Positions 11,494 to 61,942 of a stretch of DNA of 64,000 nt are shown here, piece after piece; positions within the stretch are counted from its first letter, which is position 1; each line of letters starts with the position of its first letter. The stretch is from Spiroplasma phoeniceum (GTDB taxonomy: Bacteria > Bacillota_I > Bacilli_A > Mycoplasmatales > Mycoplasmataceae), in contig CP110830.1 in assembly GCA_026239495.1 (NCBI GenBank), positions 1,488,001 through 1,552,000 on the forward strand. The letters run 5' to 3'. The notes under the pieces are model-generated. The model ran no database searches, was not told the origin of the DNA, and saw nothing but the letters and a program-made list of their open reading frames with translations. The position numbers were made by a program, and so were the translations under genes.

Positions 11494-11612
11494 ACAAAAT
11501 GTCTTTTTTAATAGATGGATTCAAAATTCTGTACCAAATAATTTTAAATTTTAAATGAATTTTTAACCAATTTATTATATAATAAAAATTACGATTTAAA
11601 GGAGTAATAAAA

Positions 11613-12572: not shown

Positions 12573-12610
12573 TTAATTTTAAAAAAGCACTTTATAGTGA
12601 ATATTTAAAA

Positions 12611-13870: not shown

Positions 13871-14037
13871 ATTGACATTGTCAATAAAATTTTATTTATT
13901 ATATATTTTTCTTTACGACTTGAATATCATTTGTTTCATTTTTTAAAATCATTAATATATTCATCATGAGATAAATAAATATTGTTATGAATTGTTTCTT
14001 TTTTTAATAAAGAGTCAAAAATTTCAATAACAATATT

Positions 14038-28324: not shown

Positions 28325-28686
28325 TTATTTGAAACTGTGCAAAAAAGAATTTTTACATTTTTGGTCGCATGTAAAAAAGAAGGGTTTTAATAAAATAGAT
28401 AGAAATTGAATAAAAATAATAAACCATTTACTAAAATGGTTTTTTTATTTGTAAAGCCAAAATTATTAATTGATTTAGAGAAAGGACAGCATCTTAAATT
28501 CTTAAAATAGAAACTTTTTATTACAACTTTTTGATACCCTCTTTAAGTTGTTTACACATTTATTAAATATCTTAGAAATCTTTACAAAGTGTACCTGTTT
28601 TTCTCCTAATTTAAGGTGTTGTCCTTTCTCTGTTTCAGTTAATTAATTTGCTAATAAAAAAACTTAATAAAAGAAAGGAGTAAGTA
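28325..28686. other. Intergenic junction between chromosome and phage relic
   Basis: No gene seen. Contains a terminator-like hairpin (28421-28447) and AT-rich sequence up to the first phage gene; the left phage boundary probably lies here but no attachment-site repeat could be identified by eye. Confidence 0.4.
28421..28447 (+). terminator. Intrinsic terminator
   Basis: AAACCATTT ACT AAAATGGTTT hairpin followed by seven T. Confidence 0.55.
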
Positions 28687-28926
28687 ATGGAAATTAATAA
28701 GCAACAAACAATATGTGATGTTGGTAATTGCTATAAAGCAATATCATTCATTACCGAAGAATTTTTATCAAATAAAGTTTTATGAACTTGTGAAAAACAT
28801 AAAGAGTTATTAAATCAAACTAAAAATTGAAAACAAAAGCAGTTTTATCATAAACTGGAAAATTCAAAAATTATCTTTGATTATGAAACTGGTTCTTTAA
28901 AAATTTGATTTAATAAAACAACTTAA
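28687..28926 (+). CDS. Small phage-region protein with Cys/His pairs
   Basis: 79 residues, not recognised. MEINKQQTICDVGNCYKAISFITEE has a CDVGNC pair and WTCEKHKELL a second Cys/His pair, so a small zinc-binding fold is possible. GAAAGGAG lies eight bases before the ATG. Three TGA Trp codons. It stands immediately upstream of the structured leader of the early phage operon. Confidence 0.55.
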
Positions 28927-29432
28927 TGCAGAGTGGGGCGGTCATTTTAAATAACTAAGTGTTTTTATTCCACATGAGGCGGTCTAGCCCAGCGGTAATC
29001 AGTCCGGAAATAATAGACGATTTAACAAGCGATAGTCGTGATAAGTGTGGGGTCAACATCGAACGACAATAAATATTGAGATGGTCACTTTATAAATAAA
29101 TTTGCGATAGATATTAATTCTTAGAAGTGGCAGCGGTTTTTAAAACCACAAAGCCAGCACTGGGCTCTTCAAGGTGCAGGTGAATTTATTTTAAAAAATG
29201 AACGCTTTGACCTGAAATGGCGCGGATGAAGAGAGAGAAAACTCTCTGGCGTAAAAAACAAAAAACAACTGTGGATTATTAAACATTCAAAAAATTAACA
29301 TACCGCTACCTCTCACCTCCAGTGAAGCGGGCGGCGTAGTAAATAAATAGATAAATACTTATTTAACAAACTCTCGCTTTGGCACTTTCACTTGGGAGTG
29401 AGCGCCAGCTAGTTAAAAAAGGAGAATTAAAA
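28927..29432 (+). ncRNA. GC-rich structured non-coding region upstream of phage early genes
   Basis: About 500 bases without a convincing ORF and with markedly higher GC than the surroundings. Visible hairpins: AGAGAG AAAA CTCTCT at 29232-29247, a CACT...AGTG hairpin near 29380-29400, and a tract AGTGAAGCGGGCGGCG at 29324-29339. The last tract recurs inverted at about 38161-38178 and, mutated, at 41600-41617, each time upstream of a phage operon. It could be a phage-encoded RNA, a 5' leader or a replication origin. Not a tRNA: no T-arm is present. Confidence 0.4.
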
Positions 29433-29684
29433 ATGATATGTAATAAAGCATTAAAAATTACAAATAAAGATATTATTTATGCACAAATTAATCGTGGTTA
29501 TTCAGATAATTTGGAATTAAATTTATATCTTAAATTTGGCAATGAAGAACGATATGTAGGTACTTTTCAACCGGTAGACTTTGATTTAAATTACAATTGA
29601 TATGAAATTGATGAAATTAAAGGTTTAATTAGTGATTATTTAGAAGATGAAGAAGCAGATTACGAGGTGATAAATTATGAATAA
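29433..29684 (+). CDS. Small acidic phage-region protein
   Basis: 83 residues, not recognised: MICNKALKITNKDIIYAQIN, GTFQPVDFDLNYNWYEIDEIKG and an acidic tail (DYLEDEEADYEV). AAGGAG seven bases before ATG. Its stop overlaps the next start by eight bases, typical of a phage early operon. Confidence 0.65.
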
Positions 29685-29841
29685 AAGATATTTATTAGTA
29701 ATGAAAGATAAATATAGCCTAAATACTATATATTTTTATACATTTGATGAAGCGAGAATTTATTCTGAAAATTTAAATTATTTTAAAACAACAATTATTG
29801 ATTTAGAAGATAAAAAAATTAAATGACAAGGATGTGAATAA
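29677..29841 (+). CDS. Small phage-region protein
   Basis: 54 residues (MNKRYLLVMKDKYSLNTIYF ... KIKWQGCE), one TGA Trp, not recognised. Starts inside the previous gene with GAGGTGATAA as ribosome-binding site. Early-operon member. Confidence 0.55.
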
Positions 29842-29842
29842 T

Positions 29843-29980
29843 ATGTGAAAAGATGAAGAAGGTAAAGTTTATACAGAAGAAGATTTATTTAATATGGCAT
29901 TAGAAGAATGTCATTCAGAAGATAGTGCATATGAATATATTGATAATTTAATTGAAGAAATGGAATTAGAGGAAATTTAA
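29843..29980 (+). CDS. Very small acidic phage-region protein
   Basis: 45 residues, MWKDEEGKVYTEEDLFNMAL followed by a Glu-rich tail; more than a third are Asp or Glu. Starts one base after the previous stop with AAGGATGTGAA upstream. Small acidic phage proteins often act as DNA mimics or inhibitors, but nothing here proves that. Confidence 0.5.
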
Positions 29981-29982
29981 TT

Positions 29983-31757
29983 ATGGTATATTTAAAGTTA
30001 AATAATGAAGTTAAAAATATTACCTATCCGTTTTATTTAAAAGGAAATAATTTTAAAGAATTAAGTTTAAAAGCATTAACAATTAAAAAATGAATTGATG
30101 AAAATGGACAAGAATTAGCAGAATTTATATATCGACAACAAGCTTGATTAATAAATGGAGAATATAAATCACAATCATTAAAAGATTTAAAATTAGTAGT
30201 TTCAAAAATTGATTATATTTTTAGAGAACCATTAGAATTAATAAAAATTTTTAAAGATGAATTAAATTTTATTAGAAAAGATATTTTGAATTTAGAAAAT
30301 AATATTAAGAGTAATCATGATTCTTTAAAAAATAGTGTAATTAATAGACTTCTTGCGATACCTGGTTTTATTATTAAAATATTATTATAAAATATAATTT
30401 ATGAGGATATTAAATTATGAAATTTGATGAATTTAAAAATATTAATGATAAAGAATGATTAAGATTAACAGGAATAAAACAAGATATTTTTAATAAAATG
30501 TTAAATATTTTACAAGTAGCTGAAATAGAAAAATTTAAAAAAGGCGGCAAAGCTAATAAATTATCACTAGAAAATCGATTATTGATGACTTTATCGTATT
30601 GACGAGAATATCGAACTTATTTTCATCTTGGAAAAAATTTCGGAATTAGTGAAGCTAATTGTTATCGCAATATCAAGTGAATTGAAGATATTTTAATTAA
30701 ACACCCTGATTTTCAGCAAGTTGCTGGTAAAAAAGTACTAATAAATGATTATTTTAATGATAAAACTATTATTATTGATGCTACCGAAACCCCAATCCAA
30801 CGCCCAAAAAAAGACAAAAACAATCTTATTCTGGTAAAAAGAAAAAACACACTATTAAAACACAAGTAATTATCGAACAAGAAACCAAAAAAATTATTGC
30901 AACAAGTTTTTCGCTTGGGAAAAAACATGATTATGCTTTATTTAAATAATCAAAAATCGCAATTTTAAAAAATACCAAATTAATAGTTGATAGTGGTTAT
31001 CAAGGAATACAAAAAATTCACAATAATGTTATAATGCCCACAAAGAAAACTAAGAAAAAACATTTAAATAAAGAACAAAAACAACATAATAGACTAGTTT
31101 CAAAAATAAGAATTATTATTGAAAATATTTTTGCTATTCTTAAAAAATTTAAAATTATTACAGAAAAATATCGTAATCGTAGAAAACGATTTAGTTTAAG
31201 ATTTAATTTAATTGCTTCAATTTATAATTTACAATTATTATAGTTATCATAAAAGATTTATTTAAAATTAACAAATTTGAATAATAAAATAATTTTTCGT
31301 TGTGACAAAATATTAAATTTTTAAATAAAAGACATAATTAATTAAAATTATAATTTTATATTAACCCCTTTTTACAAATATTTGAAATTATTTTAATGGG
31401 TTATGCAAGAAGTCTAATATTCAATTTCAAAAACAAAATGAAATTATTTAAACTCATAAAAAAGAACAATTTTTAGAAATTAAAAGTGTAGCAAAACAAG
31501 AACAAGAATTAAAAATTATTACTAGTAATTTTCGTAAAGATAAACTATTAATTAAAGATATTGAAGTTACAGGTATTAATGATGATTTTTTACAAAAAGC
31601 TGATAAATTAGAACTTATTAATTTAATTAAAAATTATTTAATTGTTGATGAACAAATTATTAAAAATAAAATTAAAGAACAATGAGATAGTAATAAAGAC
31701 ATTAATTTAATTGGTATTAAAGGTATTAATTTTAAAATAAATAAAGGAGAAAAATAA
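29983..31757 (+). pseudogene. Phage early protein (coiled, about 233 aa) interrupted by IS
   Basis: Removing the 1070-bp IS at 30346-31415 and one AAT restores a 702-nt frame exactly: MVYLKLNNEVKNITYPFYLK ... FRKDILNLENNIKSNHDSLK / SVINIQFQKQNEII, then stop TAA at 31449-31451 and KEQFLEIKSVAKQEQELK ... GINFKINKGEK. Helical, charged, with a predicted coiled coil around the insertion site. Lying directly upstream of recT it may be an exonuclease-partner or host-nuclease inhibitor, but the family is not recognised. Confidence 0.6.
30346..31415 (+). mobile_element. IS5-family type A element, transposase has nonsense codon
   Basis: AAT duplicated (30343-30345, 31416-31418). Transposase 30417-31243, with GAA changed to TAA at 30947-30949 in the second frame, so inactive. 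Confidence 0.92.
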
Positions 31758-31758
31758 T

Positions 31759-32790
31759 ATGGCAAATATAGTTGATTTTTTAAGAACAGATAAAGCAACA
31801 GAATGAATTAAAAGTAAATTTTCAAATGAAAATGAAATTGCAAGATTTAAAAGTAATATAGTTGCAATATCAAATAGTAATGAATTATTACAAAAGGCAG
31901 ATCCAAAAACTATAATGACTGCTTGTTATCAAGGAGTATTATTAAACTTACCAATGGAAAGACAATTTGGTTATGCTTATGTTGTTCCATATAACACTAA
32001 AATAACAAGAATTATTAATGGTCGTGAAATACAAGAATGAATTAATCAGGCTCAATTTCAAATGGGTTATAAAGGTTATATTCAATTAGCACAAAGAAGC
32101 GGTCAATATTTAGATATGTCAGTATCAGATGTTAGAACTGGTGAATTAGTAAATTATGATCGTTTAAAGGGAACTAGTTTTAATTGAATTCAAGATGAAG
32201 ATGAACGAGAAAAATTAACAATTATGGGTTATGTAGCATATTTTAAAATGGTTAATGGTTTTGAAAAAACTTTATATATGACCAAAGAACAAACGGAAAA
32301 TCATTTTATAAAATATTCTAAAACTTATGCTAAAAATAAATCATTTTATATTGCTACTTTTGATGAAATGGCACTTAAAACAGTATTAACTAGTTTATTG
32401 CGAAAATGAGGTATTATGTCTGTTGAATTACAACAAGCATATAAATCAGACCAAGCAGTTATTACAACTAATGATGAAAAGATTTATATTGATAATGATA
32501 GTAATATAAGCATAAATAAGAGCCAAATTAGTAATGAAAATACATCAAATAATAATTTATACATGAATCAAGTGAAGAATTAACAGATAATAGACTTCTT
32601 GCGATACCTGGTTTTATTATTAAAATATTATTATAAAATATAATTTATGAGGATATTAAATTATATTTTATAATAATATTTTAATAATAAAACCAGGTAT
32701 CGCAAGAAGTCTAATAATGTAGTAAAAGAAGAAGATATATCAAGTGTAGTTCCAACAGTTAACAATGATGAGGAATGAGCAACTTGATAA
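31759..32790 (+). pseudogene. recT: RecT-family single-strand annealing recombinase, 3' end damaged
   Basis: RecT-type proteins anneal complementary single strands in phage recombination. Residues 1-250 are intact: MANIVDFLRTDKATEWIKSK, MTACYQGVLLNLPMERQFGYAYVVPY, FQMGYKGYIQLAQRSGQY, MGYVAYFKMVNGFEKTLYM and FDEMALKTVLTSLLRKWG, the RecT core in order. Near 32560 the frame shifts so that it stops at 32583; the original tail (HESSEELTDN / VVKEEDISSVVPTVNNDEEWATW, acidic as is typical) continues in another frame and is also split by the 121-bp element at 32592. The core may still be made as a shortened protein. Confidence 0.8.
32592..32712. repeat. 121-bp palindromic MITE made of two IS5 left ends
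   Basis: Left half is the first ~75 bp of the type A IS (ends AGACTTCTTGCGATACC, through GAGGATATTAAATTA); the right half is the same sequence inverted, giving a near-perfect hairpin. AAT is duplicated on both sides. It carries both transposase-binding ends but no gene, so it can only move in trans. Inserted in the recT tail. Confidence 0.88.
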
Positions 32791-33245
32791 AAATAGGTAT
32801 TGACCCACCGGGAACTGGTACTACGGCTGTTGCTATTTTTGAAGATAATAAATTAATTGATAAATCTGAATATACAAATCGTGATTGAATTGCACAAACC
32901 GATATTATTTTAGATAAGTTAAAACAAGATGCAATTATTAATATAGAAGATTGTTTATATACATCTGCTAGTGCGAGTAAAGATAGAGATGATTTATTAA
33001 AACTTATAGGGGCAATTAAATATAAAACAGAAAAATTATTAAATATTAATTGAGTATCACCACGTCATACTAAATCAGTTGTTAAGAATATGGAAAATTT
33101 AAGTAAATATAATGATAGTTGTTTATGAGAATTTGATAAAGATACTAATTTAACCTATCAATATGGTAAAGGTTGATTTTATAATAATGAAAAAATAAGT
33201 AATCATTTACGAGATGCCATTATTATTGCTAATTATAAGGGTTAA
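32784..33245 (+). CDS. RuvC-like Holliday junction resolvase (phage type)
   Basis: 153 residues with RNase H-fold landmarks: LIKIGIDPPGTGTTAVAIFED (first catalytic Asp), IINIEDCLYTSASASKDRDD (Glu), WVSPRHTKSVV and LRDAIIIANYKG (C-terminal Asp). Starts with TTG at 32784, overlapping the recT frame; GAGGAATG is the likely ribosome-binding site. The pairing of recT and a RuvC-type resolvase is typical of temperate phage early regions and suits replication by recombination. Confidence 0.75.
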
Positions 33246-33249
33246 TATT

Positions 33250-33426
33250 ATGAAACATTCATTTAATCAAAAAACAGGAAAATATTATTCTAAATTAATT
33301 CGTAATGTTAATATTTACTTAAATGAAAATGAAGAAAAAGTTTGAAATGAATTTAATGACTTTACTTATTCGCAACGAATTGAACATCTTATTAATTTTT
33401 ATATAAAACACAATAAAGAAAAATAA
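33250..33426 (+). CDS. Small phage-region protein, ribbon-helix-helix-like length
   Basis: 58 residues: MKHSFNQKTGKYYSKLIRNV, then IYLNENEEKVWNEFNDFTYSQRIEHLINFYIK. The order strand (NVNIYL), helix (NEEKVWNEF), helix (SQRIEHLINFYI) looks like a ribbon-helix-helix DNA-binding fold, so it may be a repressor; inference only. Last gene of the plus-strand phage operon, four bases after the resolvase. Confidence 0.5.
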
Positions 33427-33453
33427 AAAATAACCTTAATTGGTTATTTTTTT
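33425..33453. terminator. Bidirectional terminator between convergent phage operons
   Basis: AAAATAACC TTAATT GGTTATTTTTTT; A-run on one side and T-run on the other, placed exactly where the plus-strand early and minus-strand late operons meet. Confidence 0.7.
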
Positions 33454-33745
33454 AAATACTATTTGTTAGTTGTCTAATATCGTCTTTTTGTTGTTGTTTT
33501 TTGTCATTTACTTTAACTTGTTTTTTAACATTTTTAATTTGACCTGTTTTTAATGCTAATTCTGTTGCATAATCAGGTCCCCGTAAATGTTTTTCGTGGG
33601 CAATAACAGCAGTTCTTAATTCTCTAATTTCTGCTTTATATTTTTTAATTTTTTTAGCAGATAATCCTAGAATACCAAGACTACCCATTCCGCCTGCACC
33701 TGCTAATACAAGTAAAGCAATTACTATTTCATTGCTAATTTCCAT
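33452..33745 (-). CDS. Holin-like small membrane protein
   Basis: 97 residues: short N-terminus, one Gly/Ala-rich transmembrane segment (IVIALLVLAGAGGMGSLGILGL), then a highly charged, Lys/Gln-rich cytoplasmic tail ending KKQQQKDDIRQLTNSI. Size and layout fit a class III-type holin or other small phage membrane protein, at the end of the late operon where lysis or release genes usually lie. Start taken as ATG 33745; an upstream in-frame extension to 33850 is open but lacks a clear ribosome-binding site. Confidence 0.5.
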   Translation of the reverse strand: MEISNEIVIALLVLAGAGGMGSLGILGLSAKKIKKYKAEIRELRTAVIAHEKHLRGPDYATELALKTGQIKNVKKQVKVNDKKQQQKDDIRQLTNSI

Positions 33746-33863
33746 TTTAATATTTCTTTTCTTGTCCTTACTCAAACAGTGACCATCTATTCTTTCAAAA
33801 CAAAATAATTTATAAATTAAACTATATAGCCACCCAAAAATATCAACCACCCCTATATATAGT

Positions 33864-34112
33864 CTATTTTAAATTTAATTCTTTGTTATTTTCTTCTGTT
33901 ATACCATCTAATTTGTTTCATGCTTTTGCTATTCTTGGTTGAATAACACGCGGATTAATACGGCAATCTAAACAATGTCTTAAATGGTCTTTTTTTCATT
34001 TTGATTTATCAATTCAAATAATAATTAAAGAAATTATTAAAGTAATTAAAGGTAATATTGTAAATACTAATCCCATTTTAGATATTTTTAATCGTGGGAT
34101 ATCAATTTTCAT
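33864..34112 (-). CDS. Small phage membrane protein
   Basis: 82 residues. N-terminal transmembrane segment MKIDIPRLKISKMGLVFTI... LITLIISLIIIWI, then WKKDHLRHCLDCRINPRVI with a C-x2-C pair, and a Glu/Asn-rich tail. Overlaps the preceding gene by 25 bases. Unknown function; structural or release role possible. Confidence 0.5.
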
Positions 34113-34444
34113 ATCAACTTTGGTTTACTACTAGCAACAAATATACCTTGAATTCCGTGTGTAAATAAAGGTGTTAATAAAATAGCAATTCCATTACCTC
34201 AATATTGACCATAATTATATCAATTAATATTATCTTTTGTTGCATTAATCATCCCATATTCTAATCAACAATTTAATGCTAAAAATATCAATGTATAAAA
34301 ACTAACTACTCAACTACGAATTTTATATTTTCTTTCTCATTCTCTAATATCTTTATGAGTTCAATTATAAGTCGGAATAGGGTCTTTTTTAAATCAATTT
34401 CAAGGTAAGGCACCCTTTAATCAAGTTGTTTTATCTTGTTTCAT
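34088..34444 (-). CDS. Small phage membrane protein with two to three TM segments
   Basis: 118 residues, six TGA Trp: MKQDKTTWLKGALPWNWFKK, YKIRSWVVSFYTLIFLALNCWLEY (membrane), WGNGIAILLTPLFTHGIQGIFVA (membrane). Ribosome-binding site AAAGGAGTTTTAATTA precedes ATG. Not recognised. Member of the minus-strand late operon. Confidence 0.5.
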
Positions 34445-34460
34445 TAATTAAAACTCCTTT

Positions 34461-35770
34461 CTAACTTACTTTTTTTCTTTCAATAATTAATGTTTGCATT
34501 TCATATTTAACTCCATTTTGATTTAATAAATTAATAATAGCATTTTGATAACCTTTTATTAAACTAATAGATATTGTAAAAATAGGTAAACCTGAAAATT
34601 GAAAGGTATTTCCAACTACTATATCATAATTTTTATCAAAGTTTTTTTCACTAAAAATTAATGAACTTTTATAAATAGTTTTATTTTCTTTTAAATACCC
34701 TAATTCAACTTTATATTTATATATTCCATTAGGAGTAATTGGTAAAATATATTGAGTATCATTAGGGACAAAATCGCTAGTATTAACAACTTCTCAATCA
34801 TTACCATCACTAATAGTTACATCACCACTTCCTAATAATGAATTACCATTAATAGTTTTAATATTTGTTCCACTTACTAATTTATCTTGTTTATTAACTA
34901 AAAAATTATCAATCGTATTTGCATCACAATAATATTTACTTAATAAATCTTTTGCTGTTTTTACAATATATTTACCATCAACTTTTTCAATATAATCTTT
35001 ATTTAACTCACTATCTTTAATGACATCTGATGAAACATCGGCACCTTGTTTTGATTTTCATACATTATTTTCATAATAAATACTATCATTATCAAGCGAA
35101 ACTATTAATTTGATATATTCGTTATAATCAATTTTAGAAAAATCATTAATAGTTGGATAAGAAATATTAATACTATTATCAGTTTGTAATCGTTCTTTTA
35201 ATCAAAATAATAATGTTGGATAAAAAGTTTTTTTTACCAATATGTTTATATTCTTCTTCTCATGAATGAACATAATTATCTATACTATAATTATAAGGTC
35301 TAGATACTGTTTTACTAGATATAATATCAATTATTTCACCTGCTAATTTTAAAGCATTTTTAACATCACGAGTAATATTTTCATTTGCCTCAGGGTCATT
35401 AGTTTGGGAATATGCTACACCACCTTGCGAAAATGATGCACTACCAGTTAAATCATTAACTCCTTTTGGTAAATATCAATTCATAACTGTTAATAAACAA
35501 GCAGATTGAATATAACTTAATCATTTATCATATTCAATTAAACCAGTATTATCTTTTTTTTACTCAGGGAAATAAATCTTTTTTATTAATCTTATCGGAA
35601 ATTGTTCCACCTGATAATCTATCCATTCATAAACTAGTTTTTAAAATAGCATTATAAATTAAATTATCATTATAAGCAGATTGTTTTCTATCATTAATAG
35701 GTTGTCAAAGTTTACTTTCTTTAACATCTTCAACTGTTATAAATAACAAATTACTTAAATTATTTTCCAT
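34461..35770 (-). pseudogene. Phage tail-fibre-like protein, two frameshifts
   Basis: Joined over two homopolymer frameshifts (near 35553 and 35228) this gives about 436 residues. N-terminal part: MENNLSNLLFITVEDVKESK ... NDLTGSASFSQGGVAYSQ, typical of phage head-tail or baseplate proteins; C-terminal part has IKTINGNSLLGSGDVTIS, the SLLGSG signature found in tail fibres and other receptor-binding phage proteins. The frame breaks lie in runs of 8 A/T, so they are either decay or sequence error. Overlaps the next gene start by 11 bases. Confidence 0.65.
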
Positions 35771-37646
35771 ATAAAACACCTCTTAATTGATTACGATATT
35801 TATTTTTTAAATTAATTGGCTTATAAATATTAACTCTTGCTTTTGCTTTCTTAATTTTTTTAATAGTTTGATTAGTTTTATAAAACATATTTTTAACTGG
35901 TGTTTTATATAAATTCTTAATATTTTTAACATCACTTTTTCGCTCTCGATACCATTTTTTATTATTAATTTCACTAGCAAAATTAAAATTAAAATGTCCA
36001 ATCTTTAAATTATTAATAAACTTTTTAATTTGTTGTAATTTTTGAACTGTTGGTAATGTTAATTTAATATTTCCTTTTGGGTATTTTTCTTTTAATGCTT
36101 GTGGTAATCGTTTTTTAATATAATTTCTTAAATGACTAGGTAATCATTTTCTTAATCAATAAAGCCAAAATAAAGTCCCTGCATTATATACAGCATTACT
36201 TAATAATTTTCAAATTTCAACTGGAACACTAGGATAAACATAAGGTCTATAAAATTTCGGATGCTTTGGTGTTTTTGTATATATTAAAATAGTTAAATTA
36301 CCTGTTAAAGTTAATTTATTAGTTATATTAAACATTCCACTATCAAGTCAACTACTATTTAAAGGTTGTCAATTAGTATTTAGATAATTTTCATTTTTAA
36401 ATTGTTCTCTATTTTTAATATTATTATCTTTTTCTAATTGACTTAATATTTGTTGTATTTCTTTTTTATGACCTTTTTTTAATTAAATAGACTTCTTGCG
36501 ATACCTGGTTTTATTATTAAAATATTATTATAAAATATAATTTATGAGGATATTAAATTATGAAATTTGATGAATTTAAAAATATTAATGATAAAGAATG
36601 ATTAAGATTAACAGGAATAAAACAAGATATTTTTAATAAAATGTTAGATATTTTACAAGTAGCTGAAATAGAAAAATTTAAAAAAGGTGGCAAAGCTAAT
36701 AAATTATCACTAGAAAATCGATTATTGATGACTTTATCGTATTGACGATAATATCGAACTTATTTTCATCTTGGAAAAAATTTCGGAATTAGTGAAGCTA
36801 ATTGTTATCGCAATATCAAGTGAATTGAAGATATTTTAATTAAACACCCTGATTTTCAGCAAGTTGCTGGTAAAAAAGCACTAATAAATGATTATTTTAA
36901 TGATAAAACTATTATTATTGATGCTACCGAAACCCCAATCCAACGCCCAAAAAAAGACAAAAACAATCTTATTCTGGTAAAAAGAAAAAACACACTATTA
37001 AAACACAAGTAATTATCGAACAAGAAACCAAAAAAATTATTGCAACAAGTTTTTCACTTGGTAAAAAACACGATTATGCTTTATTTAAAGAATCAAAAAT
37101 CGCAATTTTAAAAAATACCAAATTAATAGTTGATAGTGGTTATCAAGGAATACAAAAATTCACAATAATGTTATAATGCCCACAAAGAAAACTAAGAAAA
37201 AACATTTAAATAAAGAACAAAAACAACATAATAGACTAGTTTCAAAAATAAGAATTATTATTGAAAATATTTTTGCTATTCTTAAAAAATTTAAAATTAT
37301 TACAGAAAAATATAGAAATCGTAGAAAACGATTTAGTTTAAGATTTAATTTAATTGCTTCAATTTATAATTTACAATTATTATAGTTATCATAAAAAATT
37401 TATTTAAAATTAACGAATTTGAATAATAAAATAATTTTTCGTTGTGGCAAAATATTAAATTTTTAAATAAAAGACATAATTAATTAAAATTATAATTTTA
37501 TATTAACCCCTTTTTACAAATATTTGAAATTATTTTAATGGGTTATGCAAGAAGTCTAATAAAGCGATACCTAAAAAATAACATAAAATAAAAATTAATG
37601 TTTTTAATCATCATTTTTTAAAAAATATCAAAATTTTCTTTTTCAT
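35760..37646 (-). pseudogene. Phage membrane-anchored protein gene interrupted by IS
   Basis: 5' part: MKKKILIFFKKWWLKTLIFILCYFLGIAL, a basic N-terminus and one membrane segment. 3' part after the IS: HKKEIQQILSQLEKDNNIKNREQFK, NITNKLTLTGNLTILIYTKTPK, FWLYWLRKWLPSHLRN and a very basic C-terminus (KTNQTIKKIKKAKARVNIYK). The join also needs one frame change at a seven-T run. AAT flanks the IS. The basic tail suggests nucleic-acid or virion contact. Not recognised. Confidence 0.5.
36489..37557 (+). mobile_element. IS5-family type A element, transposase has nonsense codon
   Basis: AAT duplicated (36486-36488, 37558-37560). Transposase 36560-37385 carries Glu64 to TAA (36749-36751), as in the copy at 17497, and one A is missing near 37156. 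Confidence 0.92.
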
Positions 37647-37655
37647 ATTTGCCGC

Positions 37656-37940
37656 CTAAATTATTCCTTTGATTTTTTCGTCAATTTGTAATATTTTTCA
37701 TCCATCTGATGATAAATCTAAAACATCGTTAATTTTGTAATTTTGCATATATGAAGCAATAACATATAATTTATCTTTAAATAAATTTAATTACATTTTT
37801 GGTCCTTCTAAACATTTCAAATCATAATGATTTTTATGATGTGAAATACGACAATTAACAGGTTGACAATTAACTCAATCAAATTATGTTGTTATTTCAT
37901 TTCAAGTTTTATTAATATACAAACTTTTATATTCTGTCAT
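37656..37940 (-). pseudogene. Phage protein homologous to 41728-42012, two stops
   Basis: 94-codon frame with TAA twice. MTEYKSLYINKTWNEITT, FDWVNCQPVNCRISHHKNHYD, YKINDVLDLSSDGWKILQIDE. The intact relative on the right side has Ser (TCA) where this copy has TAA. The Cys/His content (NCQPVNCRISHHKNH) resembles an HNH- or zinc-type motif and may bind DNA. Confidence 0.6.
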
Positions 37941-37954
37941 TATATCCATACTAC

Positions 37955-38071
37955 CTAATTCTTTTTGCCTAATACCCAATCCTCATCTGTAATTTCATCT
38001 TTTGATACTGGATAAGCACGTAGCATTAATTCTTGTAATTTACTTTCAATTTTTTTATTTCATTTTTTCAT
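37955..38071 (-). CDS. Very small phage protein, first gene of the late operon
   Basis: 38 residues: MKKWNKKIESKLQELMLRAY then DEITDEDWVLGKKN. GAAAGGAAAA upstream. Followed by the homolog of 41728 after 14 bases. Unknown. Confidence 0.4.
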
Positions 38072-38137
38072 CAAATATTTTCCTTTCTGTAAAAAAACAT
38101 AATATTTCTTTATTTGTTAATATTTTGATATTTAGTA

Positions 38138-38715
38138 AATAATTTATTTTAGTATTTAATTACTTCGCCGCCCGCTTCACTTTGGGCGCGATCGTGGGCG
38201 CGGATAGTATATTTTGATGGAGTTTACCCCCATACGGAAATAAACAAAAAAACAGTTTACCCAGTTATTAATTACGCTTCATCCACCCATAGACAACTTT
38301 ATATAAAGAAAGTAACATTTTGGAATTACAACCCTCTTATTTTTTAGCTTCCGATATTGTTTTTTTTCGGCTTAACAACACTCTTTTTGTGAAAACAAGC
38401 CAAAAAAAACATGCTCTGACATTTCGCAAGTGACTAATATTGCCGAGAATTAAAAAAATAAATAGGGGACTAAATCGAATCGCTTTCACACTTTCTTTAA
38501 GGTTTCGTGCCATAGATGAGTTATCCGTCTTTAAGCATAAAAATATTAAGTTTTAGATTGCATTATTCATCAGATAGTACCTTTATTAAAAATGATATTA
38601 TTAGTTGTTAAAAAAAATATAATAAATAACAGAAAGGAAATTATAAAAATTAACTAATTTTTATGGAAAATAGGTTAATTTTAATTTTAAAGATACTATC
38701 TGATGAATAATGCAA
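38138..38715. repeat. Non-coding inverted arm (left), end of phage relic
   Basis: About 570 bp without a gene, matched in inverted orientation by 41081-41650 (blocks recognisable throughout, e.g. GACATTTCGCAAGTGACTAA at 38419-38438 and its complement near 41351). Contains the AGTGAAGCGGGCGGCG tract (inverted, about 38161-38178) leading into the late operon. Its outer end holds an inverted pair GCATTATTCATCAGATAGTA (38560-38579) and its complement (38694-38713). Probably the upstream control region and boundary of the phage. Confidence 0.65.
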
Positions 38716-38717
38716 AT

Positions 38718-38740
38718 AAAAAAATCGCTCTAATAAGCGA
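38718..38740 (-). terminator. Candidate terminator downstream of the 680-aa gene
   Basis: AATCGCT CTAATA AGCGATT with an A-run on one side that reads as T on the minus strand; it lies about 95 bases after the minus-strand stop at 38836. Confidence 0.6.
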
Positions 38741-38835
38741 TTACTTTAATTTGTATTTAATTAATTTAATTTATATTTTTTTAAAACCTAAGCCCCTTTC
38801 CGACTACCCACATTTTTATATTTTATACATAAATT

Positions 38836-40878
38836 TTAAATATAATTAATATTAAAACGGAAAGTAATTGCTTGAAGATGAGCTGGAACATTTTCTTTTG
38901 CTTTTAATTCTAACTTAATATCAAGAACAGTTAAATTACTATATCTTTCTTCACTGCTAATTTGCAATGCATAAAATCAATCACTAAAAGTAGCGGCACT
39001 ATTATGATAATTATTTAAAGGTGTAAATGTGATAATATCTTCTGCAATTCCATTAGTATAATCTATTTGTGATACATTATCACTAATGTTTAAATTGTTT
39101 CCTGCCATTTGACTAATATTTTGTATAAATTCCCATGTACGATTAACAATTTGTTTTTGTAGTATTGCTTTAAATGAAGTTACATCATGTGGAATATTTC
39201 TAACATCAATATCAATGTAATTTAATGGTTTTTGTGCTCAATATAAATTAGCACTTCAATATTTTGTAAATAAAATATTTCGTTTTTGTTTATCACTAAT
39301 TAAATAGGCATCATGACCACCAGGATTAACTAAATTAGTAATTGAATGTAATGATGGTTGATCAATTATTACATAGTTTGTTTTTGCCACTTTATTATTA
39401 TTAAAACTAATTGCTAAATCACCATTTTCTTGAATCGTTCTTTTAACAACGGTATAATCTGCTTTTTCAATTATTCCATATGATTGAAATGGTAAAATAT
39501 TTCAATCATAAAATCATTTATATTTTGAACTATTAGGGTTACTCAAAACATCTTCTTGTAATTTTCTAATTGCTGTTGCTAATGAATATTTTCCATTTAA
39601 AAAATCTTTAATTTGCTCTCCCAATCGATTTGCAATCACATTTTGAATTGTTTCACCTTGCGGTAAAAACATAAAGTAAAATTGCTCTGGCTGGCTAACA
39701 TTTAAACGTTTTGGTTGAATATGTTCATATCAAAATTGTCATTCGGTTGGTACAAGTTCTTTTGGTAAGACTAAACCACGATTTTGTGATGTTTCTAAAA
39801 TATTAATTAAAAAAATTAATAACTGTGGAATATATTTACCATTAATTTGAGTCTCTTTTTTTGCAAAACTTTGCCCTGAATCACCCTTTTTATCTGCTGA
39901 CTGAATCACTCGATTAATATCAAGCATGTAATGCATACTATCAATAGCATTTCCTGAAAACATTTGATCATTTTTATTAACACTTGAAATAGCAAAATTA
40001 CTATATGGATTATAATCACCAATAAATTCTTTATCACTTCCTTTATTTTCTGCATAAAAAGCAGCAAAACATTCTTTATAGGCAGCATAAACTTGACCTG
40101 CTAACGCCAAACTATCATTAGTGCCACTAATCATAATATTATTAGCTTGTCCACCTAGAACATTTGTTTGTTTTTCTCAAACTGTTGGCTTTAAATCATC
40201 TTTGTTTCTTGTTTCTCATAATTTAAAACTTAAAAAGTTTGATAAAAATCCTTCATTGCCAACAAATAGGGTTGGCATTCAAACCAGATTTTTTTGGATT
40301 ATGTCTTCGTATTTGATTTTTAAAAATAATAAATTTTTCATCAAATTAAATTGGTTTTGTTGCACATCAGCAAGACTTAACTGTTGTGTCCCTCGTGAAT
40401 CAGTATAAATATCTAAAATTTGAATTTGCTTAGGATATTTATATTTATTCTTAAAAAAGATATTGTTTGTAATGTATAAACTAGGTGCTTTTTCAAAAAT
40501 TAAATTATAAGCATATTCTAATCTTAATGATCTCGCAAGAGCGCGAGTTTGTGCAACTTGCCCAGTATTAAGGTCAGGAGGGATTTCATAAGTTTTAAAA
40601 ACCGGAGTTGTTGTTGTATTATCGCGTAGTTTTGTTTTTGCAAAGTTAACTTCAAAATAACCCCCATCATTAACATCTAATAAGGGCCCATCAGTTTCAA
40701 TTCCACCATAATTTAAAATATTTGCTAAAAAGGACACCCCAAAATAAGCAGAGGGAAATAAAGCACAAAGATATAACACAGCACAAATTGCGGCAAGTCA
40801 CCCCTTTTTACGTGATACTACAGTAACATTCTTTGTTAAGTTATTAAGTTTATCTCAACTGCCTGGTTTTCTTGCCAT
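38836..40878 (-). CDS. Large membrane-anchored protein of unknown function
   Basis: 680 residues, intact with TGA as Trp. Basic N-terminus then one membrane segment (WLAAICAVLYLCALFPSAYFGVSFLANIL, about residues 27-55). The rest is a large, probably extracellular domain without repeats or cysteines of note: LARSLRLEYAYNLIFEKAPSLYI, FAAFYAENKGSDKEFIGDYN, PEQFYFMFLPQGETIQNVIANRL, YLISDKQKRNILFTKYWSAN, and a predicted beta-rich C-terminus (LTVLDIKLELKAKENVPAHLQ). AAAGGAGATTTCA before the ATG. Flanked by inverted phage ends yet undamaged, unlike every phage gene around it. I do not recognise the family; a cell-surface or virus-related function are both possible. Confidence 0.8.
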
Positions 40879-41080
40879 TGAAATCTCCTTTAGTAAGCTT
40901 AATAATAGACTTATTGAATGGGTTTATTATAACAAAATTAATATTAAATGCAAAGCAGCCTTTTTGAACAAAATTAACCTTTTTAATTGTTCTTTTTAAA
41001 TAGACGTCCTGTACCATGAACCGGCAAAAAACAATTCTTGTGAGATTGTTTTTTTATTTTTATATTAAAAAACATAAATT
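40879..41080. other. Upstream region of the 680-aa gene, with terminator
   Basis: AT-rich, holds the ribosome-binding site of the divergent gene and a hairpin AACAAT TCTTGTGAG ATTGTT plus seven T (41026-41055) reading on the plus strand. Confidence 0.5.
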
Positions 41081-41650
41081 TATTTGCATTATTCATCGGA
41101 TAGTATCTTTAAATTTATAATTTTTATCATAAAAACGGACGTTATTCTGTTTTCCCTAAACAAAATAAACGATATTTTTATAAATTTCCTTTTAAATAAA
41201 GATATTATCCAATGAATAATGCAGCCCCTAAAAATTAATATTTTTTGATGCTTAAAGATGGACATATAACCCATCTATGGCACTAAGCCTTAAAGAAAGT
41301 GTGAAAGCGATTGGATTTACTCTCCTATTTATTTAATTCTCGGCAATATTAGTCACTTGCGAAATGTCAGAGCGCTTGTTTTTTGCTTGTTTTCATAAAA
41401 AGAGTGATGTTAAACCAAAAAAACAATATTGGACACTAAAAAACAAGAGGGTTGGAACTCCAAAAGGTTATTTTCTTTATATAAAGTTGTCTAGGGATGG
41501 ATGAAGCGTAATTAATAAATGGGTAAATTTGTTTTACTTCCGTTAGGGGATAAGCTCTGTTTAAATATAGAATTTTAGTATCACCATCACTCACCCACAA
41601 AGTGAGGTGGATGGCGAATTAAGCTAATTAAATCAAAATACAAATATTCT
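41081..41650. repeat. Non-coding inverted arm (right), end of phage relic
   Basis: Inverted relative of 38138-38715. Begins with GCATTATTCATCGGATAGTA (41086-41105) and its degenerate complement ending at 41222, then the same blocks in opposite order, then a mutated form of the GC-rich tract (AAGTGAGGTGGATGGCG about 41600-41617) before the first right-hand phage gene. Confidence 0.65.
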
Positions 41651-41727
41651 TATTAAATATCAAAATATTAACCAACAAAGGGATTTTCTGTTTATTTAAA
41701 AAAACAAAAAGAAAGGAATAAAATATT

Positions 41728-42012
41728 ATGCAAAAATATAAAAGTAAATATATCAATAAAACTTGAAATGAAATAACAACATCATTTGATTGATTTAATT
41801 GTAAGCCCGTTGATTGTCGTATTTCGCACCATAAAAATCATTATGATTTACAATGTTTAAAATGAGCAAAAATGTATTTAAATTTATTTGAAGATAAATG
41901 AGATGTTATTAACTCATATATGCAACATTACAAAATTAACGATATTTTAGATTTGGCTTCCGATGTTTGAAAAATATTACAAATTGAGAAAAAAATAAAA
42001 CAAATAAATTAA
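41728..42012 (+). CDS. Phage early/late protein with Cys/His motif
   Basis: 94 residues, intact: MQKYKSKYINKTWNEITTSF, DWFNCKPVDCRISHHKNHYDLQCLKW, YKINDILDLASDVWKILQIEKKI. GAAAGGAATAAAATATT precedes ATG. The C-x4-C ... H-H-x3-H block could bind zinc or be a reduced HNH fold. Its damaged copy is at 37656-37940. First gene of the right-hand phage block. Confidence 0.6.
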
Positions 42013-42467
42013 AATATATTATTGCAATTGAACCCACCGTAAGTGGACAAGCCGGTATTATTATTTATAATGTTTTACAAAAGAAAATAATTAATAATAT
42101 TACTTTTAATTCTAAAAATGAAGATGAAGCAATAAATAATATCTATTTAATATTAAATGAATTTAAAAATAAAACTTGTTCTTATTTAAATAAAGTTCTT
42201 GTAATAATTGAATATTATCAACTTCATAAGGGATTAAAAATAACAAACCCACTATCTAATCCTAAATTTATTGGCGGTTTAAAGGTTTTATGTAACTATC
42301 TATTTAATTTAAAATATTTTTTACAATCGCCAGTTGCTAAGAAAAATTATATTTATAAAGGAAATATTAAAATGACAGAGCACGAATACGATGCATGAAA
42401 ACATTTACAATATTTTTTAACAAAAGGAATTGATAAAAATGGCACAAACAAAAAGCAATTTACCTAA
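42009..42467 (+). CDS. RuvC-like resolvase (second phage copy)
   Basis: Open from about 42009, but with no ATG; the start may be TTA/ATT or lie slightly upstream in the previous gene. Features: LKYIIAIEPTVSGQAGIIIYN (RNase H-type first strand, with Glu in place of the usual Asp), KVLVIIEYYQLHKGLK (Glu), and HEYDAWKHLQYF (C-terminal His/Asp). It differs strongly from the resolvase at 32784 but has the same fold pattern. Overlaps the next gene by 29 bases. Confidence 0.5.
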
Positions 42468-42843
42468 AAAATCAATAAATAATAAACCTAAAATAAAAAG
42501 TAAAAGAGTTAACAAATTAGAACTAACTGTTAGATTACATGAAAATCCGATTAAAACTAAAATTAAGGCACTGGTTGCTGGTGGTGTTGAAGTTGACGCT
42601 TGTTCGGCTAAATGTCAGTGAGAAGGATTAAATTACTCAACATTATCAATATACAACCCATATATTTTAAATGAGTTTTTGAAATTAAAAAAAGATGATG
42701 AGATAAAAATTAAAGGCTCAGTATTTAATCAGTTAAATATAAAAACTAAACGCTATTTTTTATCTTTTAGAGTAGATAGTTTTGAAATTATACAAAAAGC
42801 GATTAGAAAAAGAACAAATACAAATATCAAATATAAATATTAA
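42439..42843 (+). CDS. Phage single-strand-binding-like (OB-fold) protein, tentative
   Basis: 134 residues. Basic N-terminus (MAQTKSNLPKKSINNKPKIKSKR) then a beta-rich part: KLELTVRLHENPIKTKIKAL, YSTLSIYNPYILNEFLKL, KKDDEIKIKGSVFNQLNIKTK, RYFLSFRVDSFEII. The pattern of strands with an interior helix resembles an OB-fold single-strand DNA-binding protein, which would fit beside a resolvase, but there is no diagnostic motif. AAAAGGAATTGATAAAA precedes ATG. Confidence 0.5.
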
Positions 42844-42863
42844 AAAATAGGAGAAAAAAAACA

Positions 42864-43322
42864 ACGGCATTAAAAAATGTAAAATATGTTCTTATTGATG
42901 AAAATAATAAAACTATTAAAAATGAAGATGGTAGTTTAGATATTAAAACTGCTGAAATTATTTTAGAAAATACTGATGAAGTAGAAGAATTTAATGCAAG
43001 TAATTTAGAAAATAGTAATCAGCAAACCAACGAACTACAAACAAAAAATACTGAATTAACTTCACAAATTGAACAACAAACAATTCAATTAAAACAAATT
43101 GAAGTAATTGACTTTATTAATTCTTTAACTGATAATGAAGAATTTAAAAATTTTTTATTAAAGTCTTATGATATTAGTGATGATATTGAAATCATTAAAG
43201 CACAATTACAAAGTGTTTATGATGAATTAATTAAGGTACAAACAGTTAACACTGGTGGCGTACCAAAGTTAGAAAACAAAGAAAAAAATATTTTAGATAC
43301 AAATAATGTATTTAATAAATAG
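42864..43322 (+). pseudogene. Phage scaffold-like protein, start codon mutated to ACG
   Basis: 152-codon frame beginning ACG GCA TTA AAA after AGGAG and eight bases, exactly where ATG is expected; no other start is well placed. The product is acidic and coiled: LKNVKYVLIDENNKTIKNED, ASNLENSNQQTNELQTKNTELTSQIEQQT, VIDFINSLTDNEEFKNFLLKSYD, ending NNVFNK. Size, charge, coiled coil and position just before a capsid-like gene match phage head scaffolds. Otherwise intact. Confidence 0.55.
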
Positions 43323-43339
43323 AAAGAAAGAAGTAAATT

Positions 43340-44571
43340 ATGGCACAAAACCCACAAAGAATTTTCGGAGATATTGCTAATCAAGCAACAAAACAAGACC
43401 GAGAAGCGCTTGAACAATGATATTTACAAACTTATCAACAAAAATTTAGTTGAGAAGCATTATTTGCGCGAAAAGAAGCTAATAAGCTTGGTTTAACATA
43501 TAAAAGAAAGAAAAATATTAAATACAATGAAGTTTTAGGGGCAAATGGTCAAGTATTTAATACTGATGATAAATTATTAAATTATTCAGAAGTAGAATTT
43601 GATGATGGAATTGTTGAATTAGATAAAATTTTAACTTTTGCTCGTAAATTAGACCCTGTAGAAAGTGATTTTAACCATAATCTTTGAGAGCGGCTGATAT
43701 CAAGCAAGCAATGGATACTGAGGTTAATTATAAACGTAATAAAATTTTATAAATTATTAATAAAGAAATAGTTACAACTATTCAAGGACAAAAAGCAAAT
43801 GATACAAACGCTTTACAAATCCACGATGAAATTATGTATAAAATATATGAAAATGGCTTTAACCCATTAGAAAAAGCTGTTTTAGGTTCGGCTGATTTTA
43901 TTCGTGGAATTTCGTAATAAATTACAGTTACAATTTGGAGCAAACGACCAAATAAATATTGTAATCACAACAAGTGTAACAACGAAAACTGTTGAAGGAA
44001 CAACATAATATATGGTTCCTAAAAAATTACCAATTATTAATAAAGATGGTTCAGAAGAAACAATTGAATTATTACCAAATGGAGTTAACGCAATTGCCTT
44101 TAAATTTAGTAAAAAATATGACCCTTTTATTTTACGCAAAAAAAAGACCATACTGCATTAAGGATTGGTGCTGCTGCATTGGGCGCTAGAATGGGCAATA
44201 CTTTTATTATGGAAAGAGCTTTATATTTAGGTGGGGCAGTATTTGAACCCAAAGGAACTATCAAACATATTGTTACAAAAATTGATATTAGTAAAATTAA
44301 TAAATTAGATAAACCAACTATTCATGTTGCAGACCCAACACAAGCAACAACAGAACAGTTAAAACCACAATTTAAAACTGTTGTTTTAGAATCAGTAAAA
44401 GCAGTAAATAGTTCTTTAACCGAAAGTTATTTTGATTACTTTATTGAAAGTAAAGGTGAAGATTGGCCAATTAATATTACAAATAATAAAACTGTTGAAG
44501 TTCAAATTGAAGGCAAAAACAACGCTACTGGCCAAACAAATCCGATTGATGTTAAAATTAAAAATTCTTAA
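43340..44571 (+). pseudogene. Phage major capsid-like protein, multiple breaks
   Basis: Follows the scaffold. MAQNPQRIFGDIANQATKQD, then FARKLDPVESDFNHNLWER, KQAMDTEVNYKRNKIL, VTTIQGQKANDTNALQIHDEIMYKIYENG, NKLQLQFGANDQINIVITTSVTTKTVEGT, and an intact last third: RIGAAALGARMGNTFIMERA, ending NATGQTNPIDVKIKNS. Stops near 43750, 43918 and 44006 plus frame changes near 43685 and 44140. Layout (capsid after scaffold; middle EIMYKIYENG-type helix) suggests an HK97-like coat protein, by context more than by motif. Confidence 0.5.
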
Positions 44572-44599
44572 TAGTACTAAAAAATATTACTTTTTCGTT

Positions 44600-46181
44600 T
44601 GATAGATATACCAATTGGAACATCTAAAACAACCCTTATTTATGCTGTTAAAAAAATCCAACTAGATTGTCAATACAACAACAAGAAAAAAGTTTTGGTT
44701 TACATTTATTATAATTTTTAGGAATTCAAGTTTTAACACTTGGTTTATAAGTTTTAACTGATGGTATTGCTTCGGCTGTTGGTCTTGGCGCGAGATTATC
44801 TAATTTTTCCGCAGCATTTATCTCATTTGGAGTAGAAGCAGCAACCGATTTTGTCGTAAATCAAATATACGATAAATTAACATCAGAATTAACTGCAAAA
44901 AGTACCTCCTTAAATTTGTTACCAGCAATTGGTGGAATTGCTAAATTAACGCGTGCTGCTCGCACAACTATAATTTTAAAATTAGCAAAAGAAACTAAAT
45001 TACTTGAAAAATTAGGTGTAATAACTTCTAATAACTTAGAAGATATCGTAAAACAAGTTACAGGCAAAAAGTTTTTATCTGATAAATTAATATTTGATTT
45101 TACAAAGCAGGCTAATAATGAAATTTTATTATATACAATTGTAAAATTAGCCCGAAACGATTTTTATAAAGGTTTTAAATTTTCTAATTTAGAAACAATT
45201 AATAATTTATTAAAAATTGAGAAAAATATTCAAAAAATAAGCCCTAAATTAGTTAAAAAAATACCACGCGTAAATGAAAAAAATGCTAATAAATGATTGT
45301 CTGAATATGGATTAAATATTGATAAAATAAGCAAAATTAATACTAATGAGTGATATAACATTATGACTAATCTTCATAAAAAAGTTGTTGGTAAAAATCT
45401 ACTATTAAATGCTAATTTAATGCGGGGCAGTAAAATATATAATAATAAATTATTAAATATTTTGCATCAAACATCAATTAAATTAAATAAAATTTTAAAT
45501 CATTTAAACCGAAATTTTTATATTCAAAAAGTAACTAAAAAATTATTAGCCCCCATTGAAAAACAATTAATTACTATTAAACAAAAAGTAATTAGTAAAA
45601 TTACTGAGCAAACTAAAAAAATATTGTCTAAATTTGAAACTAAGGCTATTAAAAAGAGGTAATTGTTACCTTTTGCTTATGGTTCTAATGTTTTTCTTGC
45701 AGTTAAAATTGTTCCTTTATCAGCTGCAGGTTAAGCTGCTTTAACAATATATTATAAGAACCCCAAATATGCCCCTCTTGTTGTTATTACAACTTTAATC
45801 AAAGCAGAACAGTTTGTTTTGAGTCTTGAACCTTTTAAATTCTATATTAACAGCGAACTGTTTATTGGATGAGGTTTTAAAAAAACAAGTTTGTTTAATT
45901 TAGTTTCTTTTACCCCACTTGCTTATCAGCAAGTAGTAAAAGATAGTTTTAAAATATATCGGACAATTGCTAAGATATTAAAAATGCAAGAACAATTTAA
46001 AAATAACTTTAATAAAGATAAATTGTTAAATACGTTAGAAGATAGTGCGGTTACTAGTTTATTGGGCAATGGACTAGTATTTCAAGTATATAAACAACTT
46101 AGAACAAAACAAGATTTAAACAAAATAATTAAAACAAAAACACTATTAAATAGTAAAAGGTTTATTTTAAATAAAATATAA
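44600..46181 (+). pseudogene. Decayed long phage membrane-rich protein(s)
   Basis: Continuous sets of frames: Gly/Ala-rich hydrophobic LGIQVLTLGLVLTDGIASAVG, SNFSAAFISFGVEAATDFVVN, LLPAIGGIAKLTRAARTTII, then KISPKLVKKIPRVNEKNANKWLSEYG, a Lys-rich part ending FETKAIKKR (45662), and a further frame LPFAYGSNVFLAVKIVPLSA to TAA at 46181. Several stops. Possibly one or two tail or minor virion proteins; not recognised. Confidence 0.4.
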
Positions 46182-46182
46182 C

Positions 46183-46311
46183 AGACTTCTTGCATAACCT
46201 ATTAAAAAATTGCAAATATTTGTAAAAAGACACTAATATAAAAATATAATTTTAATTAATTATGTTTTTTATTTAAAAATTTAATATTTTGCCACAACAA
46301 AAAATGAATTT
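46183..46311 (-). mobile_element. Type B IS5-family 3' end, fragment
   Basis: Outer end AGACTTCTTGCATAACC and the following 125 bp of the type B element, cut by the type A copy. Confidence 0.75.
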
Positions 46312-46314
46312 ATT

Positions 46315-57666: not shown

Positions 57667-57791
57667 AGTTATTTTAAGCAAAACTAAGGCACACTAGTTT
57701 ATTCATTTTTTATTAATTTATTTTATATAACTTAAAGGTTGTATGTATTATTTAAGGGTTTTAATTAATATCTTAGAAATTGTGTAATAAT

Positions 57792-58863
57792 AGACTTCTT
57801 GCATAACCTAATCTAATTATTTTAAAATTCCTATAAAATATTTTTAAATTAAAATAGAAATTATAGGAGATTAAAATTATGAAATTTGATAAATTTAATT
57901 TTATTAATGATAAAGAATTATTGCGATTAACCGGAGCAAAAAGCTACTTTTAATAAAATGTTAAATATTTTACAAGTAGCTGAAATAGAAAAATTTAAAA
58001 AAGGCGGCAAAACTAATAAATTATCACTAGAAAATCGACCACTGATGACCTTGTCGTATTGGCGAGAATATCAGACTTATTTTCATCTTGCTAAAAGTTT
58101 TGATATTAGTGAATCTAGTTGTTATCGCAATATCAAGTGAATTGAAGATATTTTAATTAAAGACTCTGATTTTCAACAACTCGCTGGTAAAAAATCACCA
58201 ATAAATGATTATTTTAATGATAAAACTATTATTATTGATGTTACCTAAACCCCAATCCAACGCCCAAAAAAAGACAAAAACAATCTTATTCTGGTAAAAA
58301 GAAGAAAACACCATTAAAACACAAGTAATTATCGAACAAGAAACCAAAAAAATTATTGCAACAATTTTTTCGCTTGGGAAAAAACATGATTATGCTTTAT
58401 TTAAAGAATCAAAAATCGCAATTTTAAAAAATACCAAATTAATAGTTGATAGTGGTTATCAAGGAATTCAAAAAATTCACAATAATGTTCTAATACCTAC
58501 AAAAAAAACAAAAAAAACCCTTTAAATAAAGTGCAAAAACAACGCAATAGAATATTTTCAAAAATGAGAATTATTATTGAAAATATTTTTGCTATTCTTA
58601 AAAAATTTAAAATTATTATAGAAAAATATCGTAATCGAAGAAAACGATTTAGTTTAAGATTTAATTTAATTGCTTCAATTTATAATTTGCAGCTAGCATA
58701 GAAGATTTATTTAAAATTAAAGAATTTAAATAATAAATTCATTTTTTGTTGTGGCAAAATATTAAATTTTTAAATAAAAAACATAATTAATTAAAATTAT
58801 ATTTTTCTATTAATGTCTTTTTACAAATATTTGCAATTTTTTAATAGGCCACGCAATAAGTCT
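57792..58863 (+). mobile_element. IS5-family type B element, inactive
   Basis: Ends AGACTTCTTGCATAACC and CACGCAATAAGTCT (one base changed). Left flank AAT, right flank ATT. The transposase lost bases in the N-terminus (about 57940), has GAA changed to TAA just after the first catalytic Asp (near 58246), and an altered A-run. Shows the type B state (SFDISESS) before the nonsense change of the copy at 3909. Confidence 0.85.
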
Positions 58864-59203
58864 ATTAAAATTCTTAAAAAAGTTATTATCAACATTTATC
58901 ATTTTTTACCATCTTTCCTTAGTTCTACACATTAACACAAAAATAATAAAAATGAAAAAAAGATATTATTTTTTATTTATTGTGTTATAATTTAATTATT
59001 AATTATTAGAAAATTAATTTAAATAAAAAAAGTAAAGTAATTTACTTTTTTTATTTTGATGTAAAATATATATAATAAAAAAAGAACAAAATATTATATT
59101 AAGTTCTTTGATATATTGATACAGTTTTATAGCTTTTTATACTCTTTTATTTAATCATATTGTTTAAATAATAGCAATTTTAATATGCAAAAAGGAGTAA
59201 AAA
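58864..59203. other. Non-coding DNA with terminator
   Basis: No gene. A hairpin AAAAAAAGTAAA GTAA TTTACTTTTTTT (59025-59052) is a good bidirectional terminator. The rest is AT-rich spacer before the terminase genes. Confidence 0.55.
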
Positions 59204-60868: not shown

Positions 60869-60871
60869 AAT

Positions 60872-61941: not shown

Positions 61942-61942
61942 A

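Follow-up and report, generated by a model that had tools for sequence, protein, structure and literature searches.

Results

Two prophage ends face each other across a host gene

In the 64,000-nucleotide window of Spiroplasma phoeniceum contig CP110830.1 analysed here, the gene for a 680-aa protein lies between two inverted arms. This arrangement is very probably the outcome of two related transposing prophages that entered the chromosome to the left and right of a single host gene in opposite orientations, were moved by their own transposase, and later decayed. The phage/host junctions are exact, the core between them is host chromosome, and relatives carry a collinear locus free of phage. 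An earlier sequence-only reading had offered two phages integrated in opposite directions or an invertible cassette; the former agrees with our results, as the host DNA has a type-A right end on one side and an opposing type-B right end on the other. The features are listed in Table 1.

Table 1. Features in and around the locus (window positions unless marked as genome positions)
Feature	Position	Strand	Evidence
Left half of MaM-2019a-type prophage, begins GGTCGCATG after target copy ACATTTTT	28363..36489	+	79-95% identical to OL689227
IS copy at left junction of ~58-kb inversion	36488..37561	+	Opposite IS, genome 1583567-1584799, adjoins the other half (MaM 6606)
Remnant of type-A prophage: non-coding right end (...TTTCCGACTACC) preceded by 94-aa ORF	37657..38808	+	84.8-88% identical to intact element A2
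27-bp inverted repeat, ~100-nt loop, inner edge of reported left arm	38558..38714		Stem common to A and B, loop type-specific
Type-A-specific terminal stretch, terminator-like hairpin 38723-38742	38716..38808	+	A/B comparison
Host chromosomal segment between prophage ends	38809..41002		Relatives' alignments; pdhD-lipoprotein gene context in relatives
680-aa protein, N-terminal membrane helix, single-copy genus-level core gene	38836..40878	-	Code 4 ORF; 13/14 genomes
Type-B-specific terminal stretch	41003..41080	-	A/B comparison
Remnant of type-B prophage from its right end into the middle of the structural operon, IS-truncated at 46314	41003..46314	-	90.5% to A2 10654-15626 over 5 kb
27-bp inverted repeat, type-B loop, inner edge of reported right arm	41084..41223		A/B comparison
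Putative RuvC-like resolvase gene of type-B remnant, homologue of 163-aa A2 gene	41967..42467	+	86.5% identity to A2 protein
Capsid-candidate gene of type-B remnant, frameshifted	43340..44571	+	Two pieces, 55% and 85% to 408-aa A2 protein
Remnant of a second MaM-2019a-type prophage with terminase pieces, right end ...CATACAACC	57737..62224	-	Sequence comparison

Inverted arms and phage/host junctions

The arms (38138-38715 and 41081-41650) had been described as inverted copies of one non-coding sequence. We checked by alignment whether they might be non-homologous, and they are homologous: blocks of 41 to 119 nt are 83-93% complementary, and identity is ~75.6% across 704 aligned columns. The homology runs on outward into a 94-aa phage ORF (37657-37945 vs 41723-42011, 85% over 289 bp). 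Another ~34 copies of the left arm lie elsewhere in the 2.18-Mb single-contig genome, so the similarity is not due to chance. Good copies of this arm were also found in seven of the 13 other genus genomes, the remainder giving a weak match or none. A search of phage DNA with the arms as query gave no match.

Alignment of ~30 genomic copies revealed two main types, each with one sharp divergence point. Type-A copies diverge right after ...TTTTTTCCGACTACC and type-B copies right after ...GGTTCATCGTACAGGACGCC; in the window the type-A end falls at 38808 (...TTCCGACTACC) and the type-B end at 41003 (...ACAGGACGCC). The copies stay conserved for ~80-90 bp past the inner arm borders reported earlier and then diverge, and the terminal ~80-90 bp of A and B are unrelated to each other. 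Alignments of five related genomes to the window are confined to 38809-41002. They stop at 38809-38811 on one side and, in four of the five, at 41002 on the other; the fifth is cut short at 40990 by an IS-like insertion. Copy divergence and the limits of the relatives' alignments are independent lines of evidence and agree to the base. The arms are thus phage sequence, as had been proposed, but their inner borders had been misplaced, since type-specific phage sequence reaches 38808 and 41003. In the S. phoeniceum genome G006 (locus L032, position 3664) the same host boundary (41002/41003) also borders foreign phage-like DNA, with ACTACC directly followed by ACTTTTTATTT next to the junction, which suggests an independent insertion into the same short spacer.

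Typing of the terminal regions assigned the left arm to A and the right arm to B with no mosaic (0.91 vs 0.62 and 0.94 vs 0.54, one 100-column block). Each arm also contains a 27-bp inverted repeat with a loop of 80-105 nt. The loop type matches the end type wherever both can be scored, and none of the 42 scored copies has an inverted loop. A loop inverted relative to the tail (and to the body where present) was observed at L013 (G000 1610634), L190 (G001 599132) and L191 (G006 387147). Of the promoter-like sites in this region, the best one lies in the loop and is directed into the phage operon. Loop inversion could be passive hairpin inversion or a small switch.

The host core and the 680-aa gene

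The core is exactly 2,194 bp long and is collinear in five related genomes. A 2.36-kb core with an intact 680-aa ORF had been reported; the ORF is indeed intact (TGA read as Trp under code 4, as in the window genes), but the true core is 38809-41002, and it is host chromosome rather than phage cargo. The gene is present as one copy each in 13 of the 14 genus genomes and has one more distant relative outside the genus. In the relatives it is flanked by pdhD (dihydrolipoamide dehydrogenase) on one side and a lipoprotein gene on the other. In the genome studied here the lipoprotein gene has lost its first part and is found 27 kb away on the opposite strand; no match to pdhD was found in this genome. 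The closest named relative of the protein is from Spiroplasma phoeniceum P40 (91% protein identity), and the host is accordingly taken to belong to the citri clade. The protein matched no Pfam, PHROG or NCBIfam family. The structure model (pLDDT 46) shows one N-terminal membrane helix at low confidence and gave no fold match.

We also asked whether the gene is absent or degraded in all relatives; it is neither, all 13 copies being uninterrupted and without a stop. Pairwise dN/dS is 0.16-0.65 (nine of the 13 copies), mostly 0.2-0.5, with higher values among the closest relatives. These values indicate moderate (ordinary) purifying selection. The dN/dS values and the absence of stops bear out the earlier suggestion of selection on an intact gene, but what is maintained is a conserved host gene and not a preserved phage gene.

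Prophage remnants and the ~58-kb inversion

The left prophage is present here as a 1.15-kb remnant only, and the type-B remnant measures 5.3 kb. The type-B end (GGTTCAT...ACAGGACGYC) is common to many copies. It had been stated that every phage gene nearby is damaged or fragmentary. This does not hold, since several genes in the right-hand remnant are open, including that at 41967-42467. Its product is predicted to be RuvC-like from a sequence motif; the A1 copy of this protein matches phrog_1981 (unknown function). A leftward structural operon is probably controlled from the non-coding arm, which would supply its leader, hairpin and terminator at the right end.

The far ends of both window copies (A and B) are lost. 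No type-B left end was found in an all-vs-all comparison of B copies (this genome and G012) combined with searches for matching 8-bp flanks. That type B transposes is thus argued by analogy, as its left end was found in no genome searched. The type-B copies in G012 have no more than the last 1.5-2.7 kb in common and appear to be dead.

The MaM-2019a-type prophage to the left of the arms is split. The right half is found on the opposite strand at genome position 1570796-1583569 and is likewise flanked by the 8-bp sequence ACATTTTT. At phage position 6606-6609 both halves give way to copies of one IS, which lie in opposite orientations, and the ~58-kb segment with the gene and both arms is therefore inverted. 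Most simply, the inversion arose by recombination between the IS copies. One IS with two ORFs occurs more than 10 times in the window, complete or in part (36488-37561, 46314-47388, 57834-61942 and others), and its copies border many of the rearrangements there. The ACATTTTT at 28355-28362 and the bases after 38808 were considered as a duplication pair and rejected as a coincidental near-match; the true partner is at genome position 1570797.

Intact type-A prophages and their transposase

Five type-A prophages of about 15.8-17.8 kb were delimited at both ends. Their intact ends are GGTAGT...ACTACC, and a perfect 8-bp target duplication was found in 5/5, at unrelated sites. MaM-2019a-type prophages gave four same-strand end pairs and two opposite-strand (split) pairs with identical 8-bp flanks, where 0.05 would be expected by chance over all pairs (the probability of a chance match for a random window 8-mer pair is 1.8e-4). 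The elements thus enter many unrelated sites and duplicate the target there, as expected of a transposable phage in the broad sense.

The product of the gene at the left end of type A is 440 aa long and scores 224 bits against NF046004 (Mbov_0401 family ICE transposase), the cut-off being 162. It shows a weaker match to ISLre2 (90 bits), also matches the ISKra4 family, and has no Pfam or PHROG family. Matches to the transposase were found in 11/14 genus genomes with the type-A query and in 24/60 relatives with the family model. The adjacent gene is terminase-like (PF04466, 1.4e-4, just under the cut-off) and matches a Lactobacillus phage terminase. The remainder of type A forms an operon that reads leftward and includes a capsid candidate, a gene that is RuvC-like by motif and the 94-aa ORF, followed by the non-coding arm region. 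The capsid candidate has a C-terminal domain in common with the MaM-2019a capsid protein (67%), and its structure model is poor (pLDDT 36). Type A, whose phage identity is read from the sub-threshold terminase match and the capsid domain, and the MaM-type elements appear to be transposable phages that move by means of a Mutator-superfamily transposase.

A variable region between the terminase and tail genes differs among type-A copies and carries genes for secreted and for lipoprotein-like products in A1 and A2. It is also present in the copy at G000 219039-236436 (L078), where a stretch of it reads N. This region is likely a phage cargo slot. Among the capsid candidates L118-L124 the first ~310 residues are common and the C-terminal domains differ. 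The ~99-residue C-terminal domain also turns up in many further reading frames of the genomes, most of them ~150 aa long.

Comparison with known mobile elements

Guerillot et al. (2014, PMC3942029) found the transposase group p-MULT 5 only in mycoplasma ICEs; a 2020 review agrees on this restriction and treats prophages separately (PMC7466169). Like type A, the mycoplasma ICEs (MICE, CDS22/p-MULT 5; PMC3942029, PMC7466169, PMC6813540) have a transposase of the NF046004 family, with its gene beside one end, inverted terminal sequences and 8-bp direct repeats with no obvious target motif. They are larger (22-37 kb vs ~16 kb), and phage genes (terminase-like, capsid candidate) are a feature of type A and not of MICE. 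No conjugation genes (TraG/VirD4 or TraE/VirB4) were detected with Pfam and PHROGs among 10 of the ~15 type-A proteins, and type A is accordingly not classed as an ICE.

Phage MaM-2019a (OL689226/OL689227/OL689230), known from S. poulsonii particles, encodes a transposase 41% identical to that of type A, and the MaM-2019a-type prophages in this genome show 8-bp duplications as type A does. Among these phages, particles are known only for MaM-2019a. It differs from type A in its ends (GGTCGC...CAACC) and size (~19 kb), and the two terminases show no BLAST similarity, so that type A is not placed in the MaM-2019a lineage, to which the prophage at 28363-36489 does belong. OL689227 contains joined prophage ends with ATAAT between them (CAACC-ATAAT-GGTCGC), much as a coupling sequence joins the ends of mycoplasma ICEs in circular form (PMC6813540). 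In clone MSRO-P1 the annotated transposase is IS30-like. OL689227 and OL689230 (L147, L187), two clones of one phage species, have annotated IS285/Mutator-like and IS30-like transposases, respectively, in the same position, which hints that mobility modules are exchanged.

The target duplication of phage Mu is 5 bp. Mu and other transposable phages resemble type A in that the prophage inserts at many sites and duplicates its target. Type A differs in its Mutator/ISLre2-type transposase, its 8-bp duplication and a far smaller genome; it has neither a MuA-type transposase nor a 5-bp duplication. The mycoplasma phages MAV1 and MFV1 (~16 kb) are similar to type A in size, mollicute host and multiple integration sites (PMC7466169), and they were absent from the hits of our phage-collection searches. 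In the full-text literature, whose coverage lacks the paper on MaM-2019a itself, we found no description of a Spiroplasma transposable phage or of a UPF0236, Mutator-like or target-duplicating prophage. Part of the finding may already be known, since the MaM-2019a records name a transposase.

Discussion

According to the reading we favor, in which two prophages inserted separately, one would have entered the spacer between pdhD and the 680-aa gene and the other the spacer between this gene and the lipoprotein gene, in opposite orientations. The two right ends would then face each other and resemble a 570-bp inverted repeat because the opposite insertions flank the gene. The transposase presumably cuts the phage ends, inserts the phage wherever it lands and duplicates 8 bp, probably by way of a circular intermediate as in mycoplasma ICEs. 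Both window copies would later have decayed by IS insertion, deletion and the ~58-kb inversion, whereas ordinary purifying selection would account for the survival of the host gene.

A flip of the core by homologous or site-specific recombination between the arms, switching the 680-aa surface protein, was part of the earlier reading. Inverted homologous arms of ~570 bp with 75-90% identity could indeed recombine. The arms are, however, pure type A and pure type B up to their unrelated tips, with no recombinant arm in the one genome of the species, and the core has no recombinase gene. The core consists of ordinary host DNA and includes an upstream region of its own, and relatives show the same arrangement in its ancestral, armless context. 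Nor would a flip obviously switch the gene, because its start and its 3' end move along with it. We consider such a cassette highly improbable and have set that claim aside. Hardly more credit is due to a single prophage that was split, with its parts inverted through IS recombination to yield two facing ends. One ~58-kb IS-bounded prophage inversion is demonstrated at this very locus, but the facing ends are both right ends, one of type A and one of type B, which one prophage cannot supply.

The 680-aa gene lies between phage ends, and surface-protein genes do occur in mycoplasma prophages (PMC7466169), so that it could be seen as cargo (a morphon or a lysogenic-conversion surface protein) of one composite phage. 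We find this the least credible explanation of all: the gene is single-copy in 13/14 genomes while the phage has dozens of copies in some genomes and is absent or nearly so in others, the gene adjoins pdhD in relatives, and the relatives' alignment ends exactly where the phage ends begin.

A broader interpretation has, in our judgment, about an even chance of being correct. Spiroplasma would carry abundant and diverse transposable phages in which a Mutator-superfamily transposase of the mycoplasma conjugative-element kind replaces the usual integrase or MuA, and in which modules of ends plus transposase are exchanged between phage bodies. The promoter-like loop in each 27-bp repeat, inverted in three copies from three genomes, could switch the structural operon.

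The puzzle of the inverted repeat is thus resolved as two separate insertions, and a false claim of an invertible gene is removed. The results suggest a route, an ICE-type transposase acting at many sites, by which prophages multiply and Spiroplasma genomes swell. If so, the conjugative elements and the phages of mollicutes would be linked by a common mobility module, and genome expansion in these bacteria would become testable.
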